Origin: Agelas oroides
Lineage: Eukaryota > Porifera > Demospongiae > Agelasida > Agelasidae
DNA: 64,000 bases
Direction: 5' to 3'
Assembly (NCBI GenBank): GCA_949130485.1
Contig: OX422189.1
Coordinates: 3,171,720 to 3,235,719, forward strand
A program made the translations under genes and the position numbers. Below, piece after piece: positions 244-45,200 of the stretch. The notes beneath the pieces were generated by a model that worked only from the letters and a program-made list of their open reading frames with translations, had not been told where the DNA came from and searched no databases. Each line of letters opens with the position of its first letter. The stretch's first letter is position 1.

Positions 244-535
244 CTCTACAAGCAATGGCTACGCTTTTAGGTAAGAGTTGGCCTAGCTATAAACACACAC
301 ACACACAGGCTGACTAACTGGATTTGATTCCCTGTTCCACAATGGCTGACTTGCATGATAGGATCACATGATACAGCTGGGGGTCAGGGTCTGCAGAATC
401 GCCACAGAAAATGTACGGAGGATGCAGACAGCGCGGTATAAAGCCAGCTATAGTTCATGATCGAGACGATGGATGGAACTCAGACCTTTTGTGGCTGTTC
501 TATTGAAGATCACCTATGACCGTGATAACTATATG
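244..535 (+). repeat. Direct duplication flanking the minisatellite, left copy
   Basis: This stretch (a 'caatggct' start, a CA run, then 'ggatttgattccctgttcca') is repeated in the same orientation at 2361-2698 with high identity. The two copies bracket the 60-bp minisatellite. Both copies contain a short (CA)n run at the same relative position. Confidence 0.8.
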
Positions 536-1257
536 AATTATGTCGAGTGGGGAAGCACCAACACCGGCTGGCACATCAATGTTCATCAGGTGAAGTTAAA
601 CATAATGGGGACATGGGAATGGGGCATTTATGGCTTAAATGGGTGGGGTATTTATGACTTAATGGGCAGGGCATTTATGGCTTAAATGGGTGGGGCAGTT
701 ATGGCAAAGTGAGTTACTGTTTTGGGGGATACGCTCAAAAAATGCTGGTCTTCAGGGGAGAATTCTATCCGATCATCGCATGACCACAGCTTTCGGTCCC
801 CTCAAACCCCCGACCTGTGGCCTGCTACAGAAAGGGTGGGACCACTCCCCACCTAAGGCTTGCTTTGATGAGCCCAGCTCTTGGACCTGGTTGTCATTCC
901 CAGTGCTATGAATACGTTATCATAATACTAACTAGGGGGGTGGGCTAACCAACGTACAGACTCTTGCTGTCATCTCATCCTGAGAGGCTTGTTTGGCGGT
1001 AGTATCAAATCGCTGGGCATTCGGGTCTGTACTGTGGCGACTTTTTCCCGGTGAGTATACTACTTTGTGTGTGAGATGCGGTCGACGGGCTTTAAAAGGG
1101 AGCAAGCTTCTCTTAGTAACAGTGTACCTATCCTAGTAACAGCATGCTTATGCTAGTTATGGCATGTGCTTTGCTATAGCAACGGTACACCTGGGGTATA
1201 GTCGGTTCCATAAGGTTGAGCTAGGGCTATAGTGTTGGGCTGGGGCTACTTGGTGTT
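536..1257. other. No gene recognised
   Basis: Three imperfect copies of a 'gggcatttatggcttaaatggg' type motif occur near 620-700. Beyond these I see no coding or RNA feature. The short open frames here have no recognisable composition or splice context. Confidence 0.4.
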
Positions 1258-2358
1258 CTCTGTGAGGCTCACTCACATTTACATTACAAGTGTGGGGCTC
1301 GCTCACACTTGAGTTACCACCGTGAGGCTCACTTACAGTTCGCTACAGGTTGTGAGGCTCACTCACACATTACGAATGTGAGGCTCGCTCACACTTGGGT
1401 TACCACTGTGAGGCTCAGTCACATTTACATTACGAATGTGGGGCTCACTCACACTTGAGTTACCACCGTGAGGCTCACTTACAGTTCGCTACAGGTTGTG
1501 AGGCTCTCTCACACATTACGAATGTGAGGCTCGCTCACACTTGAGTTACCAGCGTGAGGCTCAGTCACATTTACATTACGAGTGTGGGGCTCACTCACAC
1601 TTGAGTTACCACCGTGAGGCTCACTTACAGTTCGCTACAGGTTGTGGGGCTCACTCACACTTGAGTTACCAGCGTGAGGCTCAGTCACATTTACATTACA
1701 AGTATGGGGCTCACTCACACTTGAGTTACCACCGTGAGGCTCAGTCACATTTACATTACAAGTATGGGGCTCACTCACACTTGAGTTACCACTGTGAGGC
1801 TCACTTACAGTTTGCTACAGGTTGTGAGGCTCACTCACACATTACGAATGTGAGGCTCGCTCACACTTGAGTTACCAGCGTGAGGTTCAGTCACATTTAC
1901 ATTACGAGTGTGGGGCTCACTCACACTTGAGTTACCACCGTGAGGCTCAGTCACATTTACATTACAAGTGTGGGGCTCACTCACACTTGAGTTACCACTG
2001 TGAGGCTCACTTACAGTTCGCTACAGGTTGTGAGGCTCACACACACATTACGAATGTGAGGCTCGCTCACACTTGAGTTACCACCGTGAGGCTCAGTCAC
2101 ATTTACATTACGAGTGTGGGGCTCACTCACATTTGAGTTACCACCGTGAGGCTCAGTCACATTTACATTACGAGTATGGGGCTCACTCACACTTGAGTTA
2201 CCAGCGTGAGGCTCAGTCACATTTACATTACGAGTGTGGGGCTCACTCACACTTAAGTTACCACCGTGAGGCTCACAGTTTGCTACAGGTTGTGAGGCTC
2301 ACATTCAGAGTGTGAGGCTCACTCACACTTGAGTTATTACCATGAAGCTCACTCACAT
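1258..2358. repeat. 60-bp minisatellite made of two ~30-bp half units
   Basis: About 18 units built on alternating halves of the types 'gtgaggctcagtcacattta' and 'ggggctcactcacacttgag'. A variant half (with 'cagttcgctacaggttgtga') interrupts the array at irregular intervals and shifts the frame. Fragmented open frames of SYHREAQSHLHY type run through parts of the array on the plus strand, and others run on the minus strand. This is expected of a stop-free repeat unit and is not taken as evidence of a protein. Confidence 0.9.
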
Positions 2359-2360
2359 TT

Positions 2361-2698
2361 ACACTCTACATGCAATGGCTATTATTTTTGGTAGAGAGTT
2401 GGATTGTGAACCTAGCTAATTATAACACACACACACGCACACACAAACACACACACAAGCTGATTAACTGGATTTGATTCCCTGTTCCACAATGGCTGAC
2501 ATGCATGATAGGATCACGTGATACAGCTGGGGGTCAGGGCCTGCGAAATCGCCATAGAAAATAGAGAGTGCAGACAGCACGGTACCAGGTTAGCTGTAGC
2601 TCTGATCAAGACGATGGATGGAACTCCGACATTTTGTGGCTATTCTATCGAGGATTACCTATGATATCGAGGATTACCTATGACCGTGAACACTATAT
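2361..2698 (+). repeat. Direct duplication flanking the minisatellite, right copy
   Basis: Partner of 244-535. It contains the same CA-rich run followed by the same 'gatttgattccctgttcc' block and the 'gatggatggaact' block. A 16-bp internal tandem duplication ('atcgaggattacctatg') is specific to this copy. Confidence 0.8.
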
Positions 2699-2789
2699 GA
2701 GCCAATCTTGTGATGCCAGCCGACACAGGTGAGCCAAAAGCCATGATAAAATTGGTTACTAGCTTTGTGTACACACTAGAAAATGTAGA

Positions 2790-3245
2790 ACACTGTGGGG
2801 GCAAGCCTGAGCAAGCAGCTACTATGGCTACATGTACATAACTAGACTAAGCTTCACGCTGAAATGATGAGCTGAATCGCTTATGAGTATCGTTTATGCA
2901 CGATCCTTACATGAAGCGATCTCAACCCAGCGTGTATATAATTTTGTACGGTCTGTGAGCAGCCTGCCGTTGATGGTCAGTCCGTAGCTGCTGTGACAAA
3001 CAAGAAGTAAGGTGCCGTGCGTGCTTAAACTTGAGCCGTCTCCGCTACAGTAGCCAACACTGCACTCTGGCAGTAGCCCAGAATTGCCCTTCACCTATTG
3101 AAGCTACTAAGTGCACAAGAATGTTTAATTTTTTGGAAATATTTAAATGCGCATTTAAAATTTACGGTATATGGCCTTCCATTGCTCAGAATAGGGTAAT
3201 TACAAACCTTAGGATTATAATGCAATACACACATACCACTTTGTG
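2790..3245 (+). mobile_element. Dispersed ~460-bp MITE (family 3), copy 1
   Basis: It shares sequence over its whole length with 31868-32323, including 'gcctgagcaagcagctacta' at the left and 'catttaaaatttacggtata' toward the right. The right terminus is degraded here. Other copies are at 23300-23700 (opposite strand) and 60968-61537. Confidence 0.7.
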
Positions 3246-3700: not shown

Positions 3701-3811
3701 CTGAAAGTGCACTTGGTTGGAGTCAGAGCTCACAGAAAATGAAGATGCACTAAAGGCATGTATGTACTAAAAGTAGTCAAAAGTTAACATCTGCAGCCAG
3801 CATGCACTTAC

Positions 3812-4752
3812 CTCTGCCAGGAACTGGTATTGGCCACATGTGAGCCTGATCACTCTCTCCTCTACCAGAGCCCTCTCTTGCTCCCTGGAGAGTGGAAATA
3901 TCCTCTGCTGTACAAATGAGGGCACCTGAAACACAAGCTGAAAACAGCCCTTTTCAACTCGACAGACACGAAGCACACCTTGAGATGAAACACGGAGGAT
4001 TTTGCTTAGATGGCAACGGAACCGTTCAACTTCTATTACAGTGAAATTCTCATACTGTGAGTCCACTTTAACAAAGACATCGGTGTGGTCTGTTTCACTC
4101 TCAGGTCCAAGGTGTGGATGGCATTCAAAGATCCTTCGTTGTGCATACTGATCGAACTCTTTCTTGTATCTCAGCAAATTGTCCTTGTCTTCCTTAGTGC
4201 CACACGCTTTGATGATGTGCTCAATAATATGATAATTGAAAAATGAAAAATTGGCTGCAAGGACCAAGAAAACTTTTGACACTGTATCTGCTGATTTTAG
4301 GTCTCTAAAGTAATGGTGAAATGCTGGTATTTGTGGTTCCTTATACACAGGATCAAATGCTCCTAGAGTCATTATATGTGAAACTAAGTCAGTTATGGGT
4401 ATTTGTTGCTTCTTGAGGGACAATATCGTCAATGACACAAGCTCCTGAAAATGTATCATGATTTCCAGAGACTCAAACCGGAGTCTTCCTCTCAGTTCCT
4501 GCTGCTGCTCATGTGTGAGTCCACTCAGGTCAAGATAAGGAAAGGAGCTGGCTGAGGGGATGGGTGTTGGACAGCCTCTTTCTATGAAGCTGAAAAATGT
4601 GCACTTACCACACCCACACCCAAATGGTGGCTTATCACTAGTAGGTGGACTGGTACTACTACTATGGCTGCTTAGGTGGGTGTCTTTATCAGGTTCGGGG
4701 CAAACATAAATTCCTTCTCCATTATCTTCTTGAGTTGCTGATGTTTGAGCTT
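3812..4752 (-). CDS. DEATH-domain gene, exon 3: large poriferan-type domain of unknown function
   Basis: A 941-bp minus-strand exon. The acceptor is 'ctactacag' just upstream of 4752 and the donor GTAAGT follows 3812 on the minus strand. It opens with about 35 Ser/Thr-rich linker residues, then PPFGCGCGKCTFFSFIERGC, a Cys-rich segment that begins a ~275-residue domain. The domain contains YLDLSGLTHEQQQELRGRLR, FFNYHIIEHIIKACGT, YAQRRIFECHPHLGP and a C-terminal CRVEKGCFQLVFQVPSFVQQ block. Its first two bases complete the codon left open by the DEATH exon at 7301, so the frame is continuous, and it ends in phase 0. I associate this block with sponge DEATH/NACHT proteins from memory but know no named Pfam domain for it. 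It should continue to an exon to the left that I cannot identify. Confidence 0.8.
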
Positions 4753-7300: not shown

Positions 7301-7723
7301 GTGTACTCTCTTGTGTGTTTGTCTGCTGTGAGATCACTGGGGGTACGGGTATTGGCTGTGATCTTGGTGAAGGAGGGAAGACACTAGTCTCAGGCCTGCT
7401 GTCAGAAGCAGACGTATCTCTACCCACTTCAATTTCGTTCACTGGGCAACACTTTGTCTCCAGGTCACCAGCCAGCTGACTTGCTCCAACACTTCGACTC
7501 CTGAGAGAATCTGTAAGGGTCTTCCAGGTGGGATTGTCACTAGTGTTCAACCAAGCCTTAAGCATTTCTCGAAGCTGATCTTTGGGATCAGGGAACTGTG
7601 TTCTGATACTGTCCAATGTTCCAGTCCTCACTTTGAGCTGGAGTCCAAGGTTGTACCACTGTGCAGACACATCCAGAACCGCCTCTAGCACATGACCAAG
7701 GTCATCTGAGGTTAGTTTATTAC
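7301..7723 (-). CDS. DEATH-domain gene, exon 2
   Basis: A 423-bp minus-strand exon. The acceptor is 'atttttcag' before 7723 and the donor is GTAAGG after 7301. It encodes a death-fold domain in its first ~90 residues: NKLTSDDLGHVLEAVLDV, then WYNLGLQLKV, GTLDSIRTQFPDPKDQLREM, LKAWLNTSDNPTWKTLTDSL and LAGDLE. This is the six-helix pattern with the conserved W...LG and NPTWKTL segments of DEATH domains. A Ser/Pro/Thr-rich linker follows. The exon begins with two bases (phase 1) and ends with one base, matching exon 3. A role in homotypic death-fold assembly of an immune or apoptotic adaptor is inferred from the family only. Confidence 0.85.
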
Positions 7724-9913: not shown

Positions 9914-10384
9914 GTCAGTAGCACACACCAGCTGAAGAGCACATGCACGGGACTAGAAACTAACAATTTATTTTGCTTGGCCTTATCTGAAGCAGGTGAT
10001 CTTTCAAAAATTGTTCATGAGATCCACAAAAAAGTTATGTTTTCCCAAACATTCCCGGTCGTAAGCACACTTCATTTTCTTCAATAACATGCAACATGTT
10101 TGAGAGCATCAACCAACCAAAATTTCAAGAGTGGATGGGTACCAAGTTTGCTGAACTATTAGCCAGAGCAGCTATTAATCATTAGTAATCACATTTGGTA
10201 CAAGAATTAACACCTTTGCATAGGAAAAGTAGAACATGCACATTCACAGCAAATTGCACATACATCACAACATTTACATCCCTCACAGTCTCAACTTTCA
10301 TTGTAGTGTTAGAGTAAGAGTTTCCTTCTACAGGTTTTTGTGTTCTCATAATACTGTATGAGTCGATGGTCTTTTATTCTACTA
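9914..10384. other. No gene recognised
   Basis: AT-rich sequence downstream of the helicase remnant. No feature can be supported. Confidence 0.3.
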
Positions 10385-11088
10385 AAATCAGATGGTTGAA
10401 CAAATAGCAGTGCACAGGCCAATTTTCCATCTCGTCCTGTGTGCCCTTGTTTGTTGCACGTACTCTTCTATATCTGAGGGTGGCCCCCAGTGTATCACCT
10501 GCCTTACGTCAGGAGAATTGACACCCAAGCCAAACGCAACTGTGCATATGACTACACAAAGTTGGCTGTCTGCCATACAAAAGAAGACACTATGGCATCC
10601 TTAATACTTTTGTGTGTTGGGCTGGTATACATGTCAACTAGTCGAAATGGCATCACATTTGGGGCCCCAACAGGCTCAGTAAATTCTTTGCCTAGTGCAA
10701 TCAAAAATGTTTTGTAAAGTGGTTGACAGTCTAACTCGATGCATGCGACATCGTTTCCTGGGTAATTCATCAATCAATGGGACAAAAGTAATTTCCAGTG
10801 GTTCTTTTCAGCAACCCAGTATGCAATGTTTGGTTTGTGCGGTGATATTGCTAGAATATATGGGTCTACCATTCTTCGAGTAGTTATGACTTTGTTCCGG
10901 GTTGAGATAGCAGCTGTCACAGTGAGTGCAATCTTGTGGACATGCGGTGGGATCAAGCTGCAAACTTCCCCTAATCTTGAAAATTCTTTCCTGAAGAATG
11001 CACCCCTGGTGATAAAGAATACAAAAACAAGTTATGTAAGTACGTATACTGTAATACACAAAACAAAGCCTGAATTGCACATGTGGTA

Positions 11089-11802
11089 GTCCCGGGTAGA
11101 AATCGAACATTATTCCGTTGCGTATTTCGACCACGTTATACACTGTAAAAATTGGAGGTTGATTTAACCCAGAAAAGGTCATCTCAATTGCAGTCTGGAT
11201 TCATCTAGGTCCAGGCAGTGGCTCACCTACTTTTGCCAGGGTTTAGGGTTACACCCCTTGTCCAGTGCAGGTTTCTAGCAAACAATGAATGGGTTGCAAA
11301 TGAAATTCAATTTGTTATTGCATGTTCGTGACAAAAGGGGGTGGAACTCTCACTATATCATGTATTATTGGATTGACTCTGAAAAATATTCATGCACTAA
11401 TGGCTAACCTTTGGGCAGTATTTATGTGCTTTTATGCAAGTATTCATGCCATATTGGAACTATAAGTACACAAACACTGTAACCCTACACTGTGGTAAAA
11501 GTGGGAGGTAGTATAGATCCTGCAACTGAGGTAACCCATTTTAAACTGAATGATGAATCCAGACTGCAACTGAGATGACCTTTTCTGGGTTAAATTAACC
11601 TCCAATTTTTTACAGTGTACCACATTCGAAGCGCTGTAGCACAGAACTTCCGTTAAGGGCGGGGCTCATACGCACAGCGTAGATGCACGAATACCTGATA
11701 AGTCTATGTAGCGTGTATGAGCCCCGCCCTGGAAGTTCTGCGCTACAGCACTTTGAATGTGGTAACACGGTCAAAATCCACAACGGAATTTCTACCTGGG
11801 AC
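11089..11802. mobile_element. Long-hairpin MITE carrying a nested MITE
   Basis: The outer arms 'gtcccgggtagaaat' (11089) and 'atttctacctgggac' (ending at 11802) continue inward as an inverted repeat. It resumes at 11619-11670 ('ggcggggctcata') and 11711-11763 ('tatgagccccgcc'), giving arms of about 110 bp in total. The left arm is split by the complete TA-flanked element at 11141-11617. It sits in an intron of the helicase remnant. Confidence 0.8.
11141..11617. mobile_element. 477-bp MITE with ~65-bp terminal inverted repeats, TA target
   Basis: The left end 'cactgtaaaaattggaggtt' and the right end 'aacctccaattttttacagt' are inverted copies. The inversion continues through 'cagaaaaggtcatctcaa' and 'cagtctggattcat' to about 65 bp. 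It is flanked by TA on both sides, consistent with a Tc1/mariner-type target duplication. It is inserted in the left arm of the hairpin MITE at 11089-11802. Confidence 0.85.
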
Positions 11803-12635
11803 TGCCACACATTTCTCATGTATTGATAGTAGATATGTGCCAACTAACCATTAAGACACGCAGTGTGCCTCATCAACGGCAAAAGCCACAAGATTTTGCT
11901 GGTACACCTGTGCTCATAGCATCTCTCTCCAATACAGGTTGCTGCCCATGATGATCGAATCTGGACTAACCAGCACAATTTGATACTCTCCCCCATGGAT
12001 GCCTGTGACTACTTCCCTATCACAATCTTCAGCACTCACAAACGCTGTCTTAAAACCCCTCGCAGTGAAGGAACTGACCTGCACGCATAAAATAACCCAT
12101 GTATAAAACTGTGATGCCTAGACAAATTCAGGCATGCAGTTCTATTAATATTCTCTTCACAATGAATAAGCAAGGTACACTGACATCAAATTTACCTGGT
12201 CTTTCATGAGAGCAATTAGTGGAGATACAACAATGATGATACACTGTCTTCCTTTCGCTGATGCAGCTCATCGAAAATCCATGGTAACACAGCAAAGCAT
12301 ACGGACTTTCCACTGCCAGTTGGCAAACTGAGAAATTCATCTCGACCACTAAAGAAACTCCTTACAGCCTTCTCTTGTTCTGGTATTAGTCCAGCATACC
12401 CCAACTTTGTGCACGCTGCTTCAATAGCTCGATCAACTCAGCTTTGTTCAGTTGCCATAACCTTCTCTAATATTCACACCTTCGTACAACGTGACATATG
12501 GCATGCAATTTAAACGTCACTCGCAAAGATCAATCTGATTGGAGCACCACCAATGTGGCACTTAGGACAAAAATTGAACAGGCTGTTGCTATTTTTCCCC
12601 TCCGCGTGTGATGAATAGTCTGGGCACGAGACTAG

Positions 12636-13637: not shown

Positions 13638-14034
13638 CGCTGATTGGTCCCGGGTTGGTCTCCACGTCACCGTCTACTACCAGCAACAGGCACAGCGCCA
13701 GACACAGAGAGTAGAGGAGCGTTGCATGCGTGGACCACACCCTTCCACGTCCACTCCAACGAACGCACGTACAACACCGTACTTTGCCGACTAGCTTGTG
13801 CAGAGAAGAGAACGCACCACTTCCTACCTCGCACACGGCAGTGGCCATTATTCCCGCCAGTGAGAACAACAGCAGGACGCACAACATAGGTCGCGCCTCC
13901 GAGATCACCCGCTCCAGATGTAGATGTAGCGGAACTCGCGGGCGAGATCCACAGTGGGCCTGGTACCACCGCAGCTTTCTGTTCTCCCAGTGACCTATTC
14001 TAGCACGCCACTCTTCGGGACCATTGGGAGGCAT
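13638..14034 (-). CDS. Candidate far first exon ending in a 2A (StopGo) peptide
   Basis: Minus-strand open frame from an ATG at 14034 to a strong donor, G|GTAAGG, at 13638/13637. About 116 residues precede the canonical 2A motif DGDVETNPGP (13645-13674), which sits directly behind the hydrophobic segment LLYSLCLALCLLLVV. A second hydrophobic stretch (MLCVLLLFSLAGIMA) lies near residue 50. In 2A peptides the ribosome skips the last Gly-Pro bond and releases two products. 2A motifs with an overlapping signal sequence are reported in sea urchin NLR proteins. After NPGP the exon adds ISG and ends in phase 1, which joins in frame to the DEATH exon at 7723 (P-ISG-NKLTSDD). It could instead be the start of a LINE or other transposon, where 2A motifs also occur. 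The recognition of 2A is firm; the linkage is inference. Confidence 0.65.
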
Positions 14035-27962: not shown

Positions 27963-28434
27963 CTTTGATAACTACACAGCAAATGTATTTGTGGATGGTC
28001 GACCTGTTAGCCTGGGGCTATGGGACACAGCAGGACAGGATGACTATGACAGGCTGCGACCACTCTCCTACCCTGACACAGACATCTTCCTAATCTGCTT
28101 CTCCCTCGTCAATCCTAACTCTTTTGCCAACGTCGCAGACAAGTGGTATCCAGAAATCAGCCACCATGCACCCGGGGTACCAAAAATCCTGGTAGGTACC
28201 AAGTTGGATTTGCGAGACAACACGGCAGAGGTGGAGAGATTGAGATCTCGCAAGCAGAGTCCGATCACACCACAGCAGGGGGAGGCAATGCGGAAGAAGA
28301 TAGGAGCAGTGTGTTTCAAAGAGTGCTCTGCACTGACACATGCAGGACTTAAAGATATTTTTGATGAGGCAATTAAAGTGGTTTTGTTTCCTGAGACCAA
28401 GAAGAAGAAGAGGTCAAAGTGCACTATACTCTGA
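27963..28434 (+). CDS. RAC1: Rac-family small GTPase, exon 2
   Basis: The acceptor is the terminal AG of the CA repeat (27961-27962). The exon starts C TTT GAT AAC, completing ATC (Ile40) and giving VPT-I-FDNY, the Rac switch I effector loop (the usual residue is Val). It contains the switch II motif [19 protein letters not shown], the G4 motif GTKLDLRD, the Rho insert region ([12 protein letters not shown]), the G5 motif [11 protein letters not shown], and a polybasic tail KKKKRSK before the CAAX box CTIL, predicted to be geranylgeranylated. All catalytic positions expected of a Rho GTPase are present (Gly12-equivalent, Gln61-equivalent in AGQ). The stop is at 28432-28434. I judge the gene functional. 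Confidence 0.95.
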
Positions 28435-32472: not shown

Positions 32473-33080
32473 TCGAAAAGCTTTCTTTGACTCTCAATAC
32501 TCATCTCCTCCTCCCGCAATCCTGAGCTGCTAAGTGTCCCCTATTGCTGCACAAACAGCTCTTATACAGTTTTCTCGTGTTACCATCCATTTCGCTGGCT
32601 GCTCGTACTATCAGAACCTGTCTACTCAATCGATCGCGCGTTGTAACATGTGCACTGCAATCTCGAGATTGCACAAGGTCAATCTCGGGATTGCTGCACA
32701 TTATAAGGATTCCGAAAATGTGCTGCGCAATTCCGCAAATTCCTAGATTGCGTGGACATTTACACCGTGAAGCAAAAGCAGCTCGTTGTCCTGTACGCCA
32801 GACACCACGGAGTTTGTCCCACTGAACAGAAGATTGGTATTCCGCGAAAGAACGTCCAGCGGTGGTTGAATAGCTTTTGTGACAGTTACTACGAACAGAG
32901 CAACTCCAATCAGCAACTTGACACGTGCGGCCCGACTGTCCTTTCCCAGTCTAATACATGTGCTAGGCGCCACTCCAAAGTGCCCTTTTACCATGTGTAT
33001 ATCATTCCCGTTCTAGTAAGAAGTGCCTTCTGGTGCTGGAACTATTTTTGAGGGTCGCCTACATTAGAAACTTTATGGTA
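32473..33080 (+). mobile_element. Pogo-like non-autonomous element, 5'-truncated copy 1
   Basis: Corresponds to the right ~45% of the full copies at 37095, 41122 and 46544 and ends in the same 'gaaactttatggta'. It carries the best version of the HTH remnant: YTVKQKQLVVLYARHHGV and GIPRKNVQRWLN, then a stop. This resembles the CENP-B/psq-type DNA-binding helix-turn-helix of pogo/Tigger transposases. Confidence 0.75.
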
Positions 33081-33189
33081 CCTCAGAAATATTAAGCATG
33101 AGTATATTTCCTCATTTTGTAGCTTTATTGGCTCTAAGTTCCACGTTAGCAGTATGAAATGTGGAACTAGCTTTTTACTAGTTACTTAC

Positions 33190-33273
33190 TTCAGTGTTTT
33201 CAAGCTCTGGTTCACCCTCAGAGCACCAGCCAGTGCAGACGCTCCAGAATCTCCAATTGTATTCCATTCAAGA
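33190..33273 (-). CDS. LRR exon, B type
   Basis: 84 bp, phase-2 introns on both sides, donor GTAAGT. Starts LEWNTIGDSG, then the B framework ASALAGALRVNQSLKTL. This is the lowest-coordinate (most C-terminal) LRR exon found. Confidence 0.85.
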
Positions 33274-36200
33274 CTGTGGAAGGGATACCCCAGAATTAGT
33301 ACAAATAGTGCTTGTTACAATAGGGCATTATGTAGGAGTGGCTTCCTGTTAATTGCTCATCTGATTGTGATAATACCCAATTCACTCAAAATTACTGTTG
33401 TGTTTAGTTTACAATTACTGAGGAACATGTTGAGTAACAGTGTATGTAGTGAGTGCTACTGTTGTCAGACTTTCACACAGCAAGAACAAAACTTGATTAC
33501 AATCAGACCGTACTCATGTTCACCTGGAAATAGGCAATATTGTAAAGTCCCAACATCAACATCTTTCACAGTCAATTCAACATGAGTTTGATTTGTAGCC
33601 GAGCTCTGAGTTAGCAGTATGTAATGTGGAACTGACCTTGAGTGTGATCAGGCTGTTTTTGTGGCATTCTTGAATTAAAACCAAATATTTATTCTTTTTC
33701 TTTTGTGTACTCAGTGGCTGACCAATGGGTTCCAGATATTCAGGTTGTTGGTGGCATAGCAACAAAACATGTCTTACAATTACATTTGTGCCAAAGGAAT
33801 AAAGAAATTGCTACATCACTGTATGTCTCCCTAGTCCAAGGAGATCATAGCCAATGGCATATTGTTCAATGCTCACTTTTCCTGATAGCAAGACACTCAG
33901 TTTGCAACTCACTTCAGTTCTTCCAGTGACTTGTTATGTTGCAGTCCTGTGGCCAGAGCTATGGCTCCAGTGTCAGTCAGTCGATTGTGTTCGAGGCTGT
34001 AGTGGGATACAAACAGACACAAACACACCACAACACACAAATTTCAAGTTTCTGTTGCCATGGCAATAGTAACTCCTCATTACCAGAGCAGTCATTGATG
34101 CTGGTGTGGGCTTCAATTGACATTTTATGTCATCATAACTAAAACTCCCACACAAATCATAGCTTGTGCATGGTGACTAGACAATGGGCACTATTGTTGC
34201 CATGGCAATAGAACATGGCTTTGACACATTATTAGTATACAGAAACCCCACATTTCTGATGCTACTATACTGACAATTCAATGGTGCTGGTATAACTTCA
34301 GTTGATTCCACGGAATCTCTGATTACATTTCCTCCAAGACTATGGAAGATCACATGCATTATGTGGGTGTGGCTTCATGTTAATGTCAAATGGCTATCAT
34401 AACGACTGGTGATAAAATTCTACAGCACAATACCTCAAGAAATGTTAAGCTCATATGTATCACAGTAACTCAACATGAGTTTATTTCCTCATTTTGTAGC
34501 ATTCTTTGTAGCTCCAAATTAGCAGTATGAAATATGGAACTAGTTACTTACTATACTAGTTACTTACTTCAGTGTTTTCAAGCTCTGGTTCACTCTCAGA
34601 GCATCAGCCAGTGCAGAGGCTCCAGATTCTCCAATTGCATTCGATTCAAGACTGTGGAAGGGATACCCCATAATTAGTACAAATAGTGCTTGTTACAATA
34701 GGGCATTATGTAGGAGTGGCTTCCTGTTAATTGCTTATCTGATTGTGATAATACCCAATTCACTCAAAATTACTGTTGTGTTTAGTTTACAATTATTGAG
34801 GAACACGTTGAGTAACAGTGTATGTAGTGAGTGCTACTGTTGTCAGACTTTCACACAGCAAGAAACTTGATTGCAATCAGACCATACTCATGTTCACCTG
34901 GAAATAGGCAATATTGTAAAGTCCCAACATCAACATCTTTCACAGTCAATTCAACATGAGTTTGATTTGTAGCCGAGCTCTGAGTTAGCAGTATGTACGT
35001 AATGTGAAACTGACCTTGAGTGTGATCAGGCTGTTTTTGTGGCATTCTTGAATTAAAACCAAATATTTATTCTTTTTAACCCTCGGTGCGCATGCGCAGC
35101 GAGGGTTACAGTACTTGTTCTGTGTGTCTGTTACTCAACATCTCACTTTACACGTGATTATTCGTGCCACAAACGATACTAACCTTCTCAGCGGCGGATG
35201 AAGATTGAAAATTTTAAGCAATTTTCTCTGAAAATCCTTTGTTGTGAAGCTAGAGCGTTTCCTGTTGGTATGGCTACATGATACATGTAAGTCGGCCATT
35301 TTTTACTCCGCGGAAAACGCGCATGCGTATGAATCTGGACCACGTAGCTAGCGGCCATTTTGTTCTTGGGAGAGACGTTCTTTGCGAGTTCGATTATTGG
35401 CCATTGGCAGTAAGTATGCCTCCAACAAAGGTATGCCCGCAGTGTAAAGCTGCTGTACCTGTAAGACAGAAGACATGTGAATGCTGTGATCATGTCTTTC
35501 GATCCAAACGAAAAGCAGTGTGTAATTTGCGAGAGTAAGCTATGAAACATATGAGATCAGTAGAATCAGATAGTGTGAAATCAGCTAGGAAAGCTAAAGA
35601 TACGTTGCACAAGGCCTGTTAAAGAGCGTCAGAAACTCGTGAGCAAACTTTGCATAGGCAGGAACAAAACAGAATGCGCATGGCAAGCATGAGAGAGTCT
35701 GAAACCTTTGAGCAAACTGTGCAGAGGAAAGAGCAAGACAGAAACATCATATCTAAGTACCATGCCCACTTGTGCTGTTTTGAGACAATTAAAACCTCAT
35801 TACTTAATAATTACATCATATCTTATTAACATGCCCACTTGTGCAACTCTATAACCTATCATCAATCACCTAAACCAATTATGATAAGCATAAACACTTA
35901 TCATCTACCTTGCGCCGAGGGTTTTGCACTTCAGTGCTGTTCATTCTTTTGTGTACTCAGTGGCTGACCAATGGGTTCCAGGTTCAGGTTGTTGGTGCCA
36001 TAGCAACAAAACATGGTTTATAATTACATTTGTGGCAAAGGAATAAAGAGATTGCTATTCTACTGGTATCTCCATTACATCAATGTATGTCTCCCTAGTC
36101 CAAGGAGATCATAGCCAATGTGGAACTAGCTATTTACTAGTTACTGCAGTGTTTTCAAGCTCTGGTTCACTCTCAGTTACAATAGGGCATTATGTAGGAG

Positions 36201-39200
36201 TGGCTTCCACACACACCACAACAAACAATTTCAATGTTTCTGTTGCCATGGTATGATAACTCCTCATCACCACAGCAGTCACTGATACTGGTATGGGCTT
36301 CAACTGACATTTCATGTGACCATAACTACAAACTCCCACATAAATCATAGCTTGTGCATGGTGGCTAGACAATTGGCATTGTTGTTGCCATAGCAACAGA
36401 ACATGGCTTTGCCCCGTTATTAATATATAGAAATCCCACATTTCTGCTGCTACTGTACTGACTATTCAATGGTGCTGGTATACTCAGGTCTATTAAGGCA
36501 TGTCTGCACAGAGCAATGCATGCATTAAATCACACCCAAGGAAAATGACTTGTTGCGAGGCGGATGGTTTGGGCTTGAGTGTATCTGCTTGAAAACATGA
36601 AGTAATCAACCATTAGCCCAGGTGAAATAATAGCAGTAGCTTGAATTAAAATTTATGCTGCAATTTATGTGCTCAAAAGATCTATATGAAAGTAGATTAG
36701 TTATTTTTTCATAGTATATGTGCTGTGCATCATTTCGTGAGTAGGAAGTCGTCCACCTTTAGCTAACAAAATTTTCACACACGTTTACACAATGCCAATT
36801 AGTGTGGGCATGGTTTTCAGTCATTAAGGATATTAAGTGTGGTGTATGAAACATTCTCGCCAAGTTTCATTCACAAAGCAGTATGCCTAAGGAATCAATG
36901 AGCAATTTAGTACTTTGTACGGTCTTGGCCAGAGCTCCCATGCTTTAATATACTTGACTGATGGAGATTGCACGGAATCTCCAATCACATTTCCCCTCAT
37001 ATTATGAAAGATTACATAGATAGTGCATTATGTGGGTGTGGCTTTGTATTAATGTCAAGTGACAATCATAATGGTGATAAAATTTCACAGACAATACTGT
37101 AAAGTTTCTTATATAGGCGCTACCCCAATGTAAGCACCCCCTGAGGCATATCGTAATTTTTTCCGTTCCAATTGTAAGCGCCCTTGGGCTTTGGAATTAA
37201 ATTTAGGCACGCCTAAACTGTTGGAACGGAAGTCACACGTCCACTTACACGTATGTGCTGAGCGCGAGCGAGATGGCGTCCCTGACAGACTACTTCAGCA
37301 GTGTTAGTACAGAGGACTACGTCGCTGCTTCCTTCAGATCCACGGAATGAGAGAAGACCGTCAAGTGACCTGTGGGGAGACCCACTGGGAAAGTGCCCGC
37401 TGGAAAGCGATGGCCAGGTGCAGGCCGACGATGAGAACTTCCTGGTGGCACCTGTACATCTACCTGTTGATGGTGAGGAGCCCACTAGTGTCAAGTCCAT
37501 TCGATGCCAGTATATATGTTCTGCGCAATCTAGGAATTTGCGCAATCCTGGAATTGCGCAGTGCATTTTCGGAATCCTTATAATGCACAGCAATCTCGAG
37601 ATTGCACAAGGTTCTTGTGCAATATCGAGATTGAGTAGCCAAATTGCGAATTGCGCAATTTGTCTTAAGATAATTGCACAATTTGTCACATACATCACCA
37701 ACTGAAAACCTCACTGCTTCACCAGAACTTGAACTTGGCCCAGTACTGCTCTGCTGCTGGGTCACCCCTGAGCATCTGCACTATTCGCTGCCCCTTCGCC
37801 CTCGTGATCGTCTTGCTACAGTGCAGCCCATCGCTGGTTGCAGTAGTCATCGAAAAGCTTTCTTTGACTCTCAATACTCATCTCCTCCTCCCACAATCCT
37901 GAGCTGCTAAGTGTCCCCTATTGTTGTACAAACAGCTCTTATACAGTTTTCTCGTGTTACCATCCATTTCGCTGGCTGCTCGTACTATCAGAACCTGTCT
38001 ACTCAATCGATCGCACGTTGTAACATGTGCACTGCAATCTTGAGATTGCACAAGGTCAATCTCGGGATTGCTGCACATTATAAGGATTCCGAAAATGTGC
38101 TGCGCAATTCCGCAAATTCCTAGATTGCGTGGACATATACACCGTGAAGCAAAAGCAGCTCGTTGTCCTGTACGCCAGACACCACGGAGTTTGTCCCACT
38201 GAATAGAAGTTTGGTATTCCACGAAAGAACGTCTAGCAGTGGTTGAATAGCTTTTGTGACAGTTACTACGAACAGAGCAACTCCAATCAGCAACTTGACA
38301 CATGTGGCCCGACTGTCCTTTTCCAGTCTAATACATGTGCTAGGCGCCACTCCAAAGTGCCCTTTTACCATGTGTATATCATTCCCGTTCTAATAAGAAG
38401 TGCGTTCTGGCGCTGGAATTATTTTTGAGGGGGCGCCTACATTAGAAACTTTATGGTACCTCAAAAATGAAGAAATGTTAAGCATGAGTATATTTCCTCA
38501 TTTTGTAGCTTTATTGGCTCTAAGCTCCACGTTAGCAGTATGAAATGTGGAACTAGCTTTTTACTAGTTACTTACTTCAGTGTTTTCAAGCTCTGGTTCA
38601 CCCTCAGAGCACCAGCCAGTGCAGAGGCTCCAGATTTTCCAATTGCATTCACTTGAAGACTGTGGAAGGGATACCCCAGAATTAGTACAAATAGTGCTTG
38701 TTACAATACGGCATTATGTAGGAGTGGCTTCCTGTTAATTGCTTATCTGATTGTGATAATACCCAATTCACTCAAAATTACTGTTTATCTCTGACACAAT
38801 TATTGAGGAAAATGTTGAGTAACAGTGTATGTAGTGATTGCTTAGCCTCGTCCCCAGGCCACTCCCCAGATTTTATCTCGCAGCTGTGGAGAAAACTCGG
38901 GAGAAGGCCTGGGACCAATACTACGTCACAGACCGGAAATGGTGGACTCGGTTTCCTAATAATGGCAACGTGCCCACGCAATATGCGGCCAGTACAGCAA
39001 GTGATCGAACAGTAAAGTTTGCCTAGGCGTTTTGCCAATAGCTACGGACTTCATAAGTACCAAGTCGCTGATCAAGGATGTGTAGACGTAAGTGGAAGAG
39101 GTTATGGGTGTATGTCGACTGAGGAAAGCAGCAGGCTGAGGGCAAGCGCGTCGCTCCGTGTCAAACTTGTGACAAGTCTCCGCACTCGGACCACTATCCT

Positions 39201-42200
39201 CAAGGACGGAGAAACAGATGGCAAGGCTATGTGTAGGTATGTACAAGTTATCTACGCCATTCAGCCCTGGCTCTGAGCCTCCTTGAGGACAGTGGTCCGA
39301 GTGCAGAAACTTGTTTTGACACGGAGCGACGCGATTGCCCTCAGCCTGCTGCTTTCCTCAGTCAACGTACACCCATAACCCCTTCCACTTACATCTACAC
39401 ATCCTTGGTCAGCGACTTGGTACTTATGAAGTCTGTAGCTATTGGCAAAATGCCTAGGCAAACTTTACTGTTCGATCGCTTGCTGTACTGGCCGCATATT
39501 GTGTGGGCACGTTGCCATTATTAGGAAACCGAGTCCACATTACGTACTAACTGAGTCCACCATTTCCGGTCCGTGACGTAGTATTGCTCCCAGGCCTTCT
39601 CCCGATTTTTTTCCACGGCTGCGAGATAAAATCTGGGAGTGGCCTGGGAACGAGGCTAGTGATTGCTGTTGTTGTAAGACTTTCACACAGCAAGAACAAA
39701 ACTTGATTACAATCAAACTGTACTTATCTTCACCAGGAAATATTGTAAAGTCCCAACATCAACATCCATCATAGTCAATTCAACATGAGTTTGATTTGTA
39801 GCCGAGCTCTGAGTTAGCAGTATGTAATGTGGAACTGACCTTGAGTGTGATCAGGCTGTTTTTGTGGCATTCTTGAATTAAAACCAAATATTTATTCTTT
39901 TTCTTTTGTGTACTCAGTGGCTGACCAGGTTCAGGTTGTTGTTGCCATAGCAACAAAACATGGTTTATAATTACATTTGTGGCAAAGGAATAAAGAAATT
40001 GCTATTCTACTGGTATCTCTATATACTACATCACTGTATGTCTCCCTAGTCCAAGGAGATCAGAGCCAATGGTTTTCATGCATATTGTTCAACACTCAAA
40101 TTTCCTGACACCAAGACACTCAGTTTGCAACTCACTTCAGTTCTTCCAGTGACTTGTTATGTTGCAGTGCTGTGGCCAGAGCTACGGCTCCAGTGTCAGT
40201 CAGTTGATTGCATCTGAGGCTGTAGTGGGATACAACCAGACACAAACACACCACAACACACAAATTTCAAGTTTCTGTTGCCATGGCAATAGTAACTCCT
40301 CATTACCAGAGCAGTCATTGATGCTGATGTGGGCTTCAATTGACATTTTATGTGATCATAACTAAAACTCCCACACAAATCATAGCTTGTGCATGGTGAC
40401 TAGACAATGGGCACTGTTGTTTCCATGGAAACAGAACATGGCTTTGACACATTATTAGTATATAGAAATCCCACATTTCTGCTGCTACTGTACTGACAAT
40501 TCAATGGTGCTGGTATACTCGGGTCTATTAAGGCATGTCTGCACAGCGCAATGCGTGCATTAAATCACACCCAAGGAAAATGACTTGTTGCGAGGCGGAT
40601 GGTTTGGGCTTGGTCCTTAAGAGTGTATCTGCTTTAAAACATGAAGTAATCAACCATTAGCCCAGGTGAAATAATAGCAGTAGCTTGAATTAAAATTTAT
40701 GCTGCAATTTATGTGCTCAAAAGGTCTATATGAAAGTAGATTAGTTATTTTTTCATAGTATATGTGCTGTGCATCATTTCGTGAGTAGGAAGTCGTCCAC
40801 CTTTAGCTAACAAAATTTTCACACACGTTTACACAATGCCAATTAGTGTGGGCATGGTTTTCAGTCATTAAGGATATTAAGTGTGGTGTATGAAACATTC
40901 TCGCCAAGTTTCATTCACAAAGCAGTATGCCTAAGGAATCAATGAGCAATTTAGTACTTTGTACGGTCTTGGCCAGAGTTCCCATGCTTTAATATACTTG
41001 ACTGATGGAGATTGCACGGAATCTCCAATCACATTTCCCCTCATATTATGAAAGATATGTGGGTGTGGCTTTGTATTAATGTCAAGTGACAATCATAATG
41101 GTGATAAAATTTCACAGACAATACTGTAAAGTTTCTTATATAGGCGCCACCCCAATGTAAGCACCCCATGGGGCATATCGTAATTTTTTCCGTTCCAATT
41201 GTAAGCGCCCTTGGGCTTTGGAATTAATTTTAGGCACGCCTAAACTGTTGGAACGGAAGTCACACGTCCACTTACACGTATGTGCTGAGCGCGAGCGAGA
41301 TGGCGTCCCTGACAGACTACTTCAGCAGTGTTAGTACAGAGGACTACGTCGCTGCTTCCTTCAGATCCACGGAATGAGAGAAGACCGTCAAGTGACCTGT
41401 GGGGAGACCCACTGGGAAAGTGCCCGCTGGAAAGCGATGGCCAGGTGCAGGCCGACGATGAGAACTTCCTGGTGGCACCTGTACATCTACCTGTTGATGG
41501 TGAGGAGCCCACTAGTGTCAAGTCCATTCGATGCCAGTATATATGTTCTGCGCAATCTAGGAATTTGCGCAATCCTGGAATTGCGCAGCGCATTTTCGGA
41601 ATCCTTATAATGCACAGCAATCTCGAGATTGCACAAGGTTCTTGCGCAATATCGAGATTGAGTAGCCAAATTGCGAATTGCGCAATTTGTCTTAAGATAA
41701 TTGCACAATTTGTCACATACGTCACCAACTGAAAACCTCACTGCTTCACCAGAACTTGAACTTGGCCCCGTACTGCTCTGCTGCTGGGTCACCCCTGAGC
41801 ATCTGCACTATTCGCTGCCCCTTCGCCCTCGTGATCGTCTTGCTACAGTGCAGCCCATCTTTGCCAAATCGCTGGTTGCAGTAGTCGTCGAAAAGCTTTC
41901 TTTGACTCTCAATACTCATCTCCTCCTCCCGCAATCCTGAGCTGCTAAGTGTCCCCTATTGTTGTACAAACAGCTCTTATACAGTTTTCTCGTGTTACCA
42001 TCCATTTCGCTGGCTGCTCGTACTATCAGAACCTGTCTACTCAATCGATCGCACGTTGTAACATGTGCACTGCAATCTCGAGATTGCACAAGGTCAATCT
42101 CGGGATTGCTGCGCATTATAAGGATTCCGAAAATGCGCTGCGCAATTCCGCAAATTCCTAGATTGCGTGGACATATACACCGTGAAGCAAAAGCAGCTCG

Positions 42201-45200
42201 TTGTCCTGTACGCCAGACACCACGGAGTTTGTCCCACTGAATAGAAGTTTGGTATTCCGCGAAAGAACGTCCAGCGGTGGTTGAAAAGCTTTTGTGACAG
42301 TTACTACGAACAGAGCAACTCCAATCAACAACTTGACACGTGCGGCCCGACTGTCCTTTTCCAGTCTAATACATGTGCTAGGCGCCACTCCAAAGTGCCC
42401 TTTTACCATGTGTATATCATTCCCATTCTAATAAGAAGTGCCTTCTGGCGCTGGAACTATTTTTGAGGGGCGCCTACATTAGAAACTTTATGGTACCTCA
42501 GAAATGTTAAGCATGAGTATATTTCCTCATTTTGTAGTTTTATTGGCTCTAAGCTCCACGTTAGCAGTATGAAATGTGGAACTAGCTTTTACTAGTTACT
42601 TACTTCAGTGTTTTCAAGCTCTGGTTCACCCTCAGAGCACCAGCCAGTGCAGATGCTCCAGATTCTCCAATTTCAGTCCATTCAAGACTGTGGAAGGGAT
42701 ACCCCAGAATTAGTACAAATAGTGCTTGTTACAATAGGGCATTATGTAGGAGTGGCTTCCTGTTAATTGCTCATCTGATTGTGATAATACCCAATTCACT
42801 CAAAATTACTGTTGTGTTTAGTTTACAATTACTGAGGAACATGTTGAGTAACAGTGTATGTAGTGAGTGCTACTGTTGTCAGACTTTCACACAGCAAGAA
42901 CAAAACTTGATTACAATCAGACCATACTCATGTTCACCTGGAAATAGGCAATATTGTAAAGTCCCAACATCAACATCTTTCACAGGACTTCAACATGAGT
43001 TTGATTTGTAGCCGAGCTCTGAGTTAGCAGTATATAATGTGGAAATGACCTTGAGTGTGATCAGGCTGTTTTTGTGGCATTCTTGTATTAAAACCAAATA
43101 TTTATTCTTTTTCTTTTGTGTACTCAGTGGCTGACCAATGGGTTCCAGATATTCAGGTTGTTGGTGGCATAGCAACAAAACATGGCGTACAATTACATTT
43201 GTGCCAAAGGAATAAAGAAATTGCTACAGCACTGTATGTCTCCCTAGTCCAAGGAGATCATAGCCAATGGCATATTGTTCAATCCTCACTTTTCCTGATA
43301 GCAAGACACTCAGTTTGCAACTCACTTCAGTTCTTCCAGTGACTTGTTATGTTGCAGTGCTGTGGCCAGAGCTATGGCTCCAGTGGAAGTCAGTCGACTG
43401 TGGCTGAGGCTGTAGTGGGATACAACCAGACACAAACACACCACAACACACAAATTTCAAGTTTCTGTTGCCATGGCAATAGTAACTCCTCATTACCAGA
43501 GCAGTCATTGATGCTGGTGTGGGCTTCAATTGACATTTCATGTCATCATAACTAAAACTCCCACACAAATCATAGCTTGTGCATGGTGACTAGACAATGG
43601 GCACTATTGTTGCCATGGCAATAGAACATGGCTTTGACACATTATTAGTATACAGAAACCCCACATTTCTGATGCTACTATACTGACAACTCAATGGTGC
43701 TGGTATAACTTCAGTTGATTCCACGGAATCTCTGATTACATTTCCTCCAAGACTATGGAAGATCACATGCATTATGTGGGTGTGGCTTTGTGTTAATGTC
43801 AAATGGCTATCATAACGACTGGTGATAAAATTCTACAGCACAATACCTCAAGAAATGTTAAGCTCATATGTATCACAGTAACTCAACATGAGTTTATTTC
43901 CTCATTTTGTAGCATTCTTTGTAGTTCCAAATTAGCAGTATGAAATATGGAACTAGTTACTTACTATACTAGTTACTTACTTCAGTGTTTTCAAGCTTTG
44001 GTTCACTCTCAGAGCATCAGCCAGTGCAGACGCTCCAGATTCTCCAATTGCATTCACTCCAAGACTGTGGAAGGGATATCCCAGAATTAGTACAAATAGT
44101 GCTTCTCACAATAGGGCATTATGTAGGAGTGGCTTCCTGTTAATTGCTCATCTGATTGTGATAATACCCAATTCACTCAAAATTACTGTTGTGTTTAGTT
44201 TACAATTACTGAGGAACATGTTGAGTAACAGTGTATGTAGTGAGTGCTACTGTTGTCAGACTTTCACACAGCAAGAACAAAACTTGATTACAATCAGACC
44301 GTACTCATGTTCACCTGGAAATAGGCAATATTGTAAAGTCCCAACATCAACATCCATCACAGTCAATTCAACATGATTTTGATTTGTAGCCGAGCTCTGA
44401 GTTAGCAGTATGTAATGTGGAACTGACCTTGAGTGTGATCAGGCTGTTTTTGTGGCATTCTTGAATTAAAACCAAATATTTATTCTTTTTAACCCTCGGC
44501 GCACATGCGCAGCGAGGGTTACAGTACTTGGTCTGTGTGTCTGTGTGTCTGTCTGTGTGTCTGTTACTCAACATCTCACTTTACACATGATTATTCGTGC
44601 CACAAACGATACTAACCTTCTCAGCGGCAGATGAAGGTTGAAAATTTTAAGCGATTTTCTCTGAAAATGCTTTGTTGTGAAGCTAGAGCGTTTCCTGTTG
44701 GTATGGCTACATGATACATGTAAGTTGGCCATTTTTTACTCTGCGGAAAACGCGCATGCGTATGAATCTGGACCACGTGGCTAGCAGCCATTTTGTTCTT
44801 GGGAGAGACGTTCTTTGCGAGTTCGATTATTGGCCATTGGCAGTAAGTATGCCTCCAACAAAGGTATGCCCGCAGTGTAAAGCTGCTGTACCTGTAAGAC
44901 AGAAGACATGTGAACGCTGTGATCATGTCTTTCGATCCAAATGAAAAGCAGAGTGTAATTTGCGAGAGAAAGCTATGAAACATATGAGATCAGTAGAATC
45001 AGATAGTGTGAAATCAGCTAGGAAAGCTAAAGATAAGTTGCACAAGGCCTGTGAAAGAGCGTCAGAAACTCGTGAGCGAACTTTGTATAGACAGGAACAA
45101 AACAATGCGCATGGCAAGCATGAGAGAGTCTGAAACCTTTGAGCAAACTGTGCAGAGGAAAGAGCGAGACAGAATACATCATATCTTATTCCAAAAGTAC

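Follow-up and report, generated by a model that had tools for sequence, protein, structure and literature searches.

A StopGo/2A leader exon as the probable start of Death-domain genes in the sponge Agelas oroides

We analyse here a 64-kb stretch of the genome of the sponge Agelas oroides (64,000 nucleotides; contig OX422189.1, positions 3,171,720 to 3,235,719), hereafter called the window, in which an exon at 13638..14034 on the minus strand ends in a StopGo/2A motif. This exon, called 2A-A, is likely to be the first coding exon in a host multigene family whose genes consist of a leader with its 2A, a phase-1 Death exon and one or more exons of a further type, X. The leader is ca 115–165 residues long and has two hydrophobic segments, H1 and H2, with the StopGo/2A core at its end. 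From what is known of 2A biology, most ribosomes would release the leader at NPG and resume from the proline, to yield a cytosolic Death-X protein and a hydrophobic leader peptide; failure to skip would give a leader-Death fusion, directed to the endoplasmic reticulum or secretory pathway by H1 and H2. In the window copy, a 2A-A leader and the first part of its intron would have been joined, near 10 kb, to an in-phase gene of the DEATH2-X type. To our knowledge, 2A signals are very rare in cellular genes.

The exon begins with an ATG at 14034 and comprises 132 codons plus one base. It sits in a minus-strand open reading frame (ORF) at 14046-13618, encoding MPPNGPEEW...THATLLYSLCLALCLLLVVDGDVETNPGPISG, and its protein ends in ...LLVVDGDVETNPGP-IS. 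The 3′ end of the exon reads ...AATCAGCG|GTAAGG, with a phase-1 donor, G|GTAAGG, directly after 13638; with this donor included, the tail of the ORF is ...THATLLYSLCLALCLLLVVDGDVETNPGP-IS-G|GTAAGG. The 2A core GDVETNPGP occupies residues 122–130 (13645..13671, minus strand), with the predicted skip between G129 and P130, and its DVETNPGP agrees with the StopGo core rule (D/G/C/N)(V/I)ExNPGP. It is the sole 2A core in the six frames of the window; a second NPGP string, at 55460-55471 on the minus strand, has no 2A core before it. The first-pass annotation of this DNA had described a canonical 2A core with an overlapping signal-like segment, in an exon that ends at a phase-1 consensus donor in phase with a DEATH exon, and this observation is confirmed. 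No relatives of the leader turned up in PDB (searched to E 1), in Pfam (to E 0.1) or among viral contigs. It can be added that a second open frame of 110 codons runs through the exon at 13670-13999 on the minus strand, with similar readings in other copies.

The leader belongs to a sizeable family. With the leader protein, 42 matches were obtained in the genome (259 Mb, 141 contigs), five of which were removed: two second pieces of counted copies and three weak matches on contig C1 that belong to another leader type, 2A-C. Five of the remaining 37 copies are found on C7 near the window, and most of the others on C8. Sequences were fetched for 34 copies (all except C8:9770286, C8:9586466 and C2:11515295), and every one of these keeps NPGP and has a phase-1 GT at the same place as in the window. 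The core is GDVETNPGP in 32 of them, the other two having GDVEANPGP and GDVEINPGP.

Substitution rates were calculated over 33 copies, omitting L073, whose start differs from the search string. The ratio of nonsynonymous to synonymous rates (dN/dS) is 0.296 for the whole exon, and it is below 1 in all 518 pairs with a synonymous difference (pS) above 0.1. By part, it is 0.133 in the conserved N-terminal residues 1–48 (13891..14034, minus strand), 0.54 in H1, 0.58 in the loop, 0.29 in H2, and only 0.006 in the 2A core. The exon is under purifying selection and the core is its most constrained part, since it has the lowest dN/dS despite a synonymous divergence (pS 0.389, against a nonsynonymous pN of 0.003) that is at least equal to that of the other parts of the exon.

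The leaders are coupled to a Death-like exon. In the C8 copy L041, a stretch of 4.6 kb, such an exon, called DD1, lies 3.2 kb downstream of the 2A-A exon. A DD1 exon follows 34 of the 37 copies on their own strand, at a distance of up to 25 kb, and never occurs on the opposite strand; random placement (1000 trials, with the lengths of some contigs only roughly guessed) produces 0.7 such cases on average and at most 5. These partner counts, and those for the 2A-B leaders below, draw on 56 rows (DD1) and 100 rows (DEATH2) of 150-row tables. No DD1 was found in this range for the window copy, for C7:3072955 or for a C2 copy that has an internal stop. The acceptor of DD1 is in phase 1 in those exons whose start was read by eye. 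Profile comparison shows DD1 to be homologous to DEATH2, the Death exon of the window (hhalign 97.2 %, E 3.4e-11), and relates repeats behind DD1 in L042 and L091 to X (hhalign 93.8 %, E 1.8e-7, three sequences a side), a relationship that is not seen by plain blastp. L042 ends with a further Pfam Death domain. The DD1-type and DEATH2-type genes thus appear to share the order 2A leader, Death, X.

The pairing of 2A leaders with Death exons is not confined to 2A-A. The core pattern D(V/I/M)ExNPGP (GAYRTNGARNNNAAYCCNGGNCC) occurs at 285 sites in the genome, while the reversed pattern gives none, which means that the motif does not arise by chance. Among 100 listed sites of the 285 (those on C1 and a few on C2), a Death exon follows within 10 kb on the same strand in 60, and either a Death exon or X in 72, with no case on the opposite strand; the random expectation is a mean of 1.4 and a maximum of 6. 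A second leader type, 2A-B, gave 72 matches, of which 69 were used after removal of two further pieces of counted copies and one short fragment. A DEATH2 exon lies within 25 kb behind 59 of these 69 leaders on the same strand, and behind none on the opposite strand; the random-placement controls cover 2A-A with DD1 and the listed 2A sites, not 2A-B. Seen from the Death side, a complete 2A motif lies within 1.5 kb at 10 of the 30 DEATH2 loci that were fetched, and a phase-1 GT follows it in all ten. Several 2A-B matches at C1:3025731-3226828 have internal stops and lie beside DEATH2 exons; they are possibly pseudogenes in a tandem cluster.

The third type, 2A-C, is found on C1 (L047, L049). Profile comparisons of 2A-A with 2A-C and with 2A-B align them only over H2 and the 2A, in 25 and 18 columns, respectively. 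By eye, WRARIG can be seen near the starts of both 2A-A and 2A-C, a similarity missed by the profile comparison. At three further loci, L044, L045 and L046, where the leader is of a second type and not 2A-A, a 2A core and a Death-type domain are contained in one exon (...LLLLLSGDIE(T/V/K)NPGP-(V/M)LSVADL...). With no intron in between, these loci show from the DNA sequence alone that 2A and Death are in one frame. The Death hit of L046 has 30.3 bits (Pfam cut-off 22.6); in a local search of small size, L044 and L045 each aligned with DEATH2 at an E value near 3e-20. The general link between 2A leaders and Death exons that the first-pass annotation had proposed is therefore borne out across the genome, by the DD1 coupling, the listed sites and the single-exon fusions.

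Non-LTR retrotransposons, which have no long terminal repeats, are among the mobile elements known to bear 2A sequences, and the exon could in principle be part of a long interspersed nuclear element (LINE), a Helitron or another mobile element. We consider this very improbable. Where the window was compared with copies on C8 and C1 (L006-L008, L041), the DNA similarity spans the stretch from ATG to donor, and no element-wide homology around the 2A ORF was found beyond short matches, which argues for a coding exon rather than a dispersed repeat. Taken together with the DD1 exon behind 34 of 37 copies and the purifying selection across diverged paralogues, this led us to reject a mobile-element origin for 2A-A. 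What speaks for such an origin is the fraction of listed 2A sites, 28 of 100, at which neither Death nor X was found nearby, and the ORF L092 (C1:10533300-10536300, 265-3000 on the plus strand). The latter, one of those 28 sites, is Helitron-like, with Helitron_like_N, DUF6570 and PHD domains, and it carries CVLCMLLLLLCGDIETNPGP (...LLLLLCGDIETNPGP) before its PHD finger. The leaders resemble 2A-bearing mobile elements, including L092, in having a hydrophobic stretch and GD(V/I)ExNPGP near the start of the ORF, but what comes after the 2A in L092 are PHD and Helitron-type domains and not Death exons. That L092 and the Death genes have this core in common may point to an exchange between mobile elements and the leaders of host genes.

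We now consider the gene in the window itself. The DEATH2 exon at 7301..7723 on the minus strand has 423 bases and is in phase 1 at both ends (start CTGATTTTTCAG|GT AAT AAA, end AGTACAC|GTAAGG). It matches Pfam Death with 33 bits (cut-off 22.6, 6.5e-8), and the profile of the DEATH2 family matches FADD death domains in PDB at E 3.6e-7. It is followed by the X exon (3767..4752, minus strand), whose acceptor CTACTACAG|AA is in frame with the DEATH2 donor. X has no Pfam match at E 0.1; it has 124 matches in the genome, many of them directly behind DEATH2-type exons. The fit in phase between the 2A exon and the exon at 7723-7301, which had been pointed out from the sequence earlier, holds: a phase-1 donor meets a phase-1 acceptor, and the three predicted exons (2A-A, DEATH2 and X), when joined, form a single uninterrupted frame of 601 residues. 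We regard use of the 13638-7723 splice junction in the window copy as only slightly more likely than not.

The window copy looks like a recombinant or deletion chimera, in which a 2A-A leader has come to lie ahead of a DEATH2-X gene. This is suggested by the absence of DD1 together with a switch of intron homology near 10 kb. Between the exon and position 10008 the intron sequence agrees with the 2A-A paralogue L040, while from 9978 downwards colinear pieces match the surroundings of the other DEATH2 exon on C7 (L010, L090). The apparent breakpoint would accordingly be placed at 9978..10008, separating the intron of a 2A-A/DD1 gene on its right from the DEATH2 unit on its left; the last L010/L090 piece is only 61 bp long, and without it the limit is 9225. 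The DEATH2 and X exons of the window are 97 and 98 % identical to copies at C7:2965800 and C7:2962311. After these, the closest X copies lie on C17 (77 %) and C21 (75 %, interrupted by an internal stop). At these two loci DEATH2 shows 68 and 71 % identity, with a 2A-B leader 901 bp (C17) and 183 bp (C21) upstream of it.

It is important to note that a number of observations weigh against the assignment of 2A-A as the first exon of Death-domain genes, in general or in the window. The usual partner DD1 was not found in the window copy, and the putative first intron contains helicase fragments, RecQ-like by our reading, at 10391..12437 on the minus strand (Helicase_C 29.6 bits, cut-off 23.5; DEAD 25.8 bits, cut-off 26), a stretch that is partly common to the C7 copies L039 and L040. 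For the copy C7:3072955, the lists used show no DD1 or DEATH2 exon within 25 kb, so that some copies may be non-functional. DD1 is without a Pfam hit, and its profile gives no death-domain hit in PDB. Of the single-exon fusions, L044 (20.5 bits) and L045 (17.5 bits) have Death hits below the Pfam cut-off. Besides the 28 listed 2A sites mentioned above, 20 of the 30 DEATH2 loci lack a full 2A motif in their 1.5-kb flanks; seven of these 20 (L013, L016-L021) have a 2A-B leader 1.6–7.3 kb upstream. Finally, H2 may be no more than the upstream motif belonging to the 2A itself, and in the window copy the core is preceded by DG, not by the (A/S/C)G reported for the L-rich motifs; most copies have AG.

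For the window, the first of these points could also mean that the 2A exon has been orphaned. It would then be what remains of a 2A-A/DD1 gene after deletion of its Death exon, and its position upstream of a DEATH2-X gene, itself dead or with its start elsewhere, would be accidental. We regard this as a serious possibility, although one to which we would give somewhat less than even weight. The missing DD1, the apparent breakpoint and the helicase fragments between the exons all fit it. Furthermore, the 97 % identical DEATH2 copy at C7:2965800 has no NPGP in the 13 kb upstream (L010, L090, L091), the next 2A-A exon being 23 kb away, and the closest DEATH2-X relatives outside C7, those on C17 and C21, use a 2A-B leader instead. 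Against an orphan relic, however, the 2A exon is open, its phase fits and the joined frame is uninterrupted. Within the DEATH2 exon, the open frame lacks a methionine ahead of the domain, so that an upstream coding exon is needed, and no 2A-B leader was found near the window DEATH2. Moreover, the dN/dS of DEATH2 and X relative to the C17 and C21 relatives is 0.30–0.59. Two other candidates were discarded: a hidden DD1 exon between 13638 and 7723, for which sensitive tblastn gave chance-level matches only, and a leftover 2A-B leader upstream of 7723, for which the window gave only the known exon and weak, chance-level matches.

If the 2A-A leader is indeed a first coding exon, the question arises of what its hydrophobic segments do. 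H1 (residues 51–67, LCVLLLFSLAGIMATAV) lies at 13834..13884 and H2 (residues 104–120, ATLLYSLCLALCLLLVV) at 13675..13725, just before the 2A core, both on the minus strand; their 17-mer Kyte-Doolittle (KD) values are 2.51 and 2.62. The first-pass annotation had seen a signal-like segment overlapping the 2A. The stretch is indeed hydrophobic, but this alone is no proof of a signal sequence, because an L-rich run is itself a StopGo upstream motif. In the fetched copies, compared by eye, an L-rich run precedes the core and mostly ends in AG as in the L-rich motifs; that of the window copy ends in VVDG and agrees less well with them. H1, which was not mentioned earlier, would be the better targeting candidate, as a possible signal anchor. 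It ends 52–82 residues ahead of NPGP, a distance at which it could exit the ribosomal tunnel and meet the signal recognition particle before the skip.

The opposing view would be skipping without targeting, with H2 merely the L-rich part that the 2A needs and StopGo only freeing two proteins or trimming the leader. It has some support from PMC12846837, in which the L-rich motifs 2 and 6 upstream of the core are a recognised StopGo class and an example of motif 6 is active in vitro. The 2A-A copies resemble viral StopGo/2A elements with these motifs in their core D(V/I)ExNPGP, the L-rich upstream run and, in most copies, the AG; they differ in belonging to a cellular, spliced host gene family, in lying at a leader boundary instead of inside a polyprotein, and, for the window copy, in the DG. 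In our view, an absence of targeting is nevertheless less likely than not. The 17-mer KD value of H1 is at least 1.95 in all 33 copies despite its varied sequence, with the dN/dS of 0.54 given above, and a comparable segment (KD at least 2.0) is present in 11 of 14 2A-B and 2A-C leaders, the exceptions being L035, L037 and L046.

The closest precedent is provided by the 2A leaders of sea-urchin NLRs. According to PMC4981915, one such leader does both skipping and targeting; ca 80 % skipping was estimated in vitro, and a skip-dead mutant was found mainly in the Golgi of HeLa cells. In 14 tabulated entries the 2A forms the first ca 26 residues, and others have it within the N-terminal region. 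The sponge genes are similar in having a 2A core and hydrophobic residues N-terminal to Death-containing proteins of innate-immune type, in many paralogues; the Death exon downstream is DD1 in 34 of 37 cases and DEATH2 in the window copy. They differ in their long leaders with an extra hydrophobic segment, in which the core is reached only at residues 122–130 in the window. A further difference concerns NACHT. With 105 of 314 NACHT candidates covered, so that weaker ones are possible, no same-strand NACHT was detected in the 25 kb behind any of the 37 2A-A exons, while one was found behind 4 of the 69 2A-B leaders. The counts used 92 of the 105 rows, the other 13 being on contigs without any 2A-A or 2A-B row (C5, C6, C15 and C19). 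Five 2A sites (C11:970039, 980676, 1362353 and 4058847, and C2:935345) have NACHT on the same strand 3–7 kb behind them, and NLR-type genes with 2A leaders may thus exist in the same genome too. The principle is known from the sea urchin; what is different here is the long two-segment leader, the lack of detected NACHT, the copy number and the apparent recombination of one leader with a different Death exon. Among the literature matches listed, we recognised no description of sponge 2A-Death genes, and priority is not claimed.

Two other features of the window may be mentioned. At 27970-28431 on the plus strand there is an exon of a Ras-family small GTPase (Pfam Ras 2.5e-32), directly behind a long simple repeat that reads as TH repeats. 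The region 32501-47776 contains near-identical ORFs every 4–5.4 kb (32501-32950, 37878-38327, 41916-42365 and 47327-47776), which represent a local repeat or a tandem duplication.

On a larger scale, we tentatively suggest, with less than even confidence, that StopGo could be a standard, exchangeable front end of a large Death superfamily, with three leader types that look unrelated beyond their 2A end and usually have the skip site at a phase-1 border. They would be combined with phase-1 Death exons, and new pairings would arise through recombination in the intron, as seems to have happened in the window. The leader would then be a conserved two-segment membrane protein, made in a fixed ratio with a Death protein in the cytosol, and how often skipping fails would determine the share of Death protein that goes to membranes. 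The significance of the arrangement is that a virus-like ribosome-skip signal ends the start of the gene ahead of domains of cell-death and immune type, so that one message may make two proteins. If the skipping is true, recoding would be routine in the Death-domain signalling of this animal, with dual localisation or a fixed-ratio output of two proteins, and the natural leader/Death recombinants would let the role of the leader be tested.
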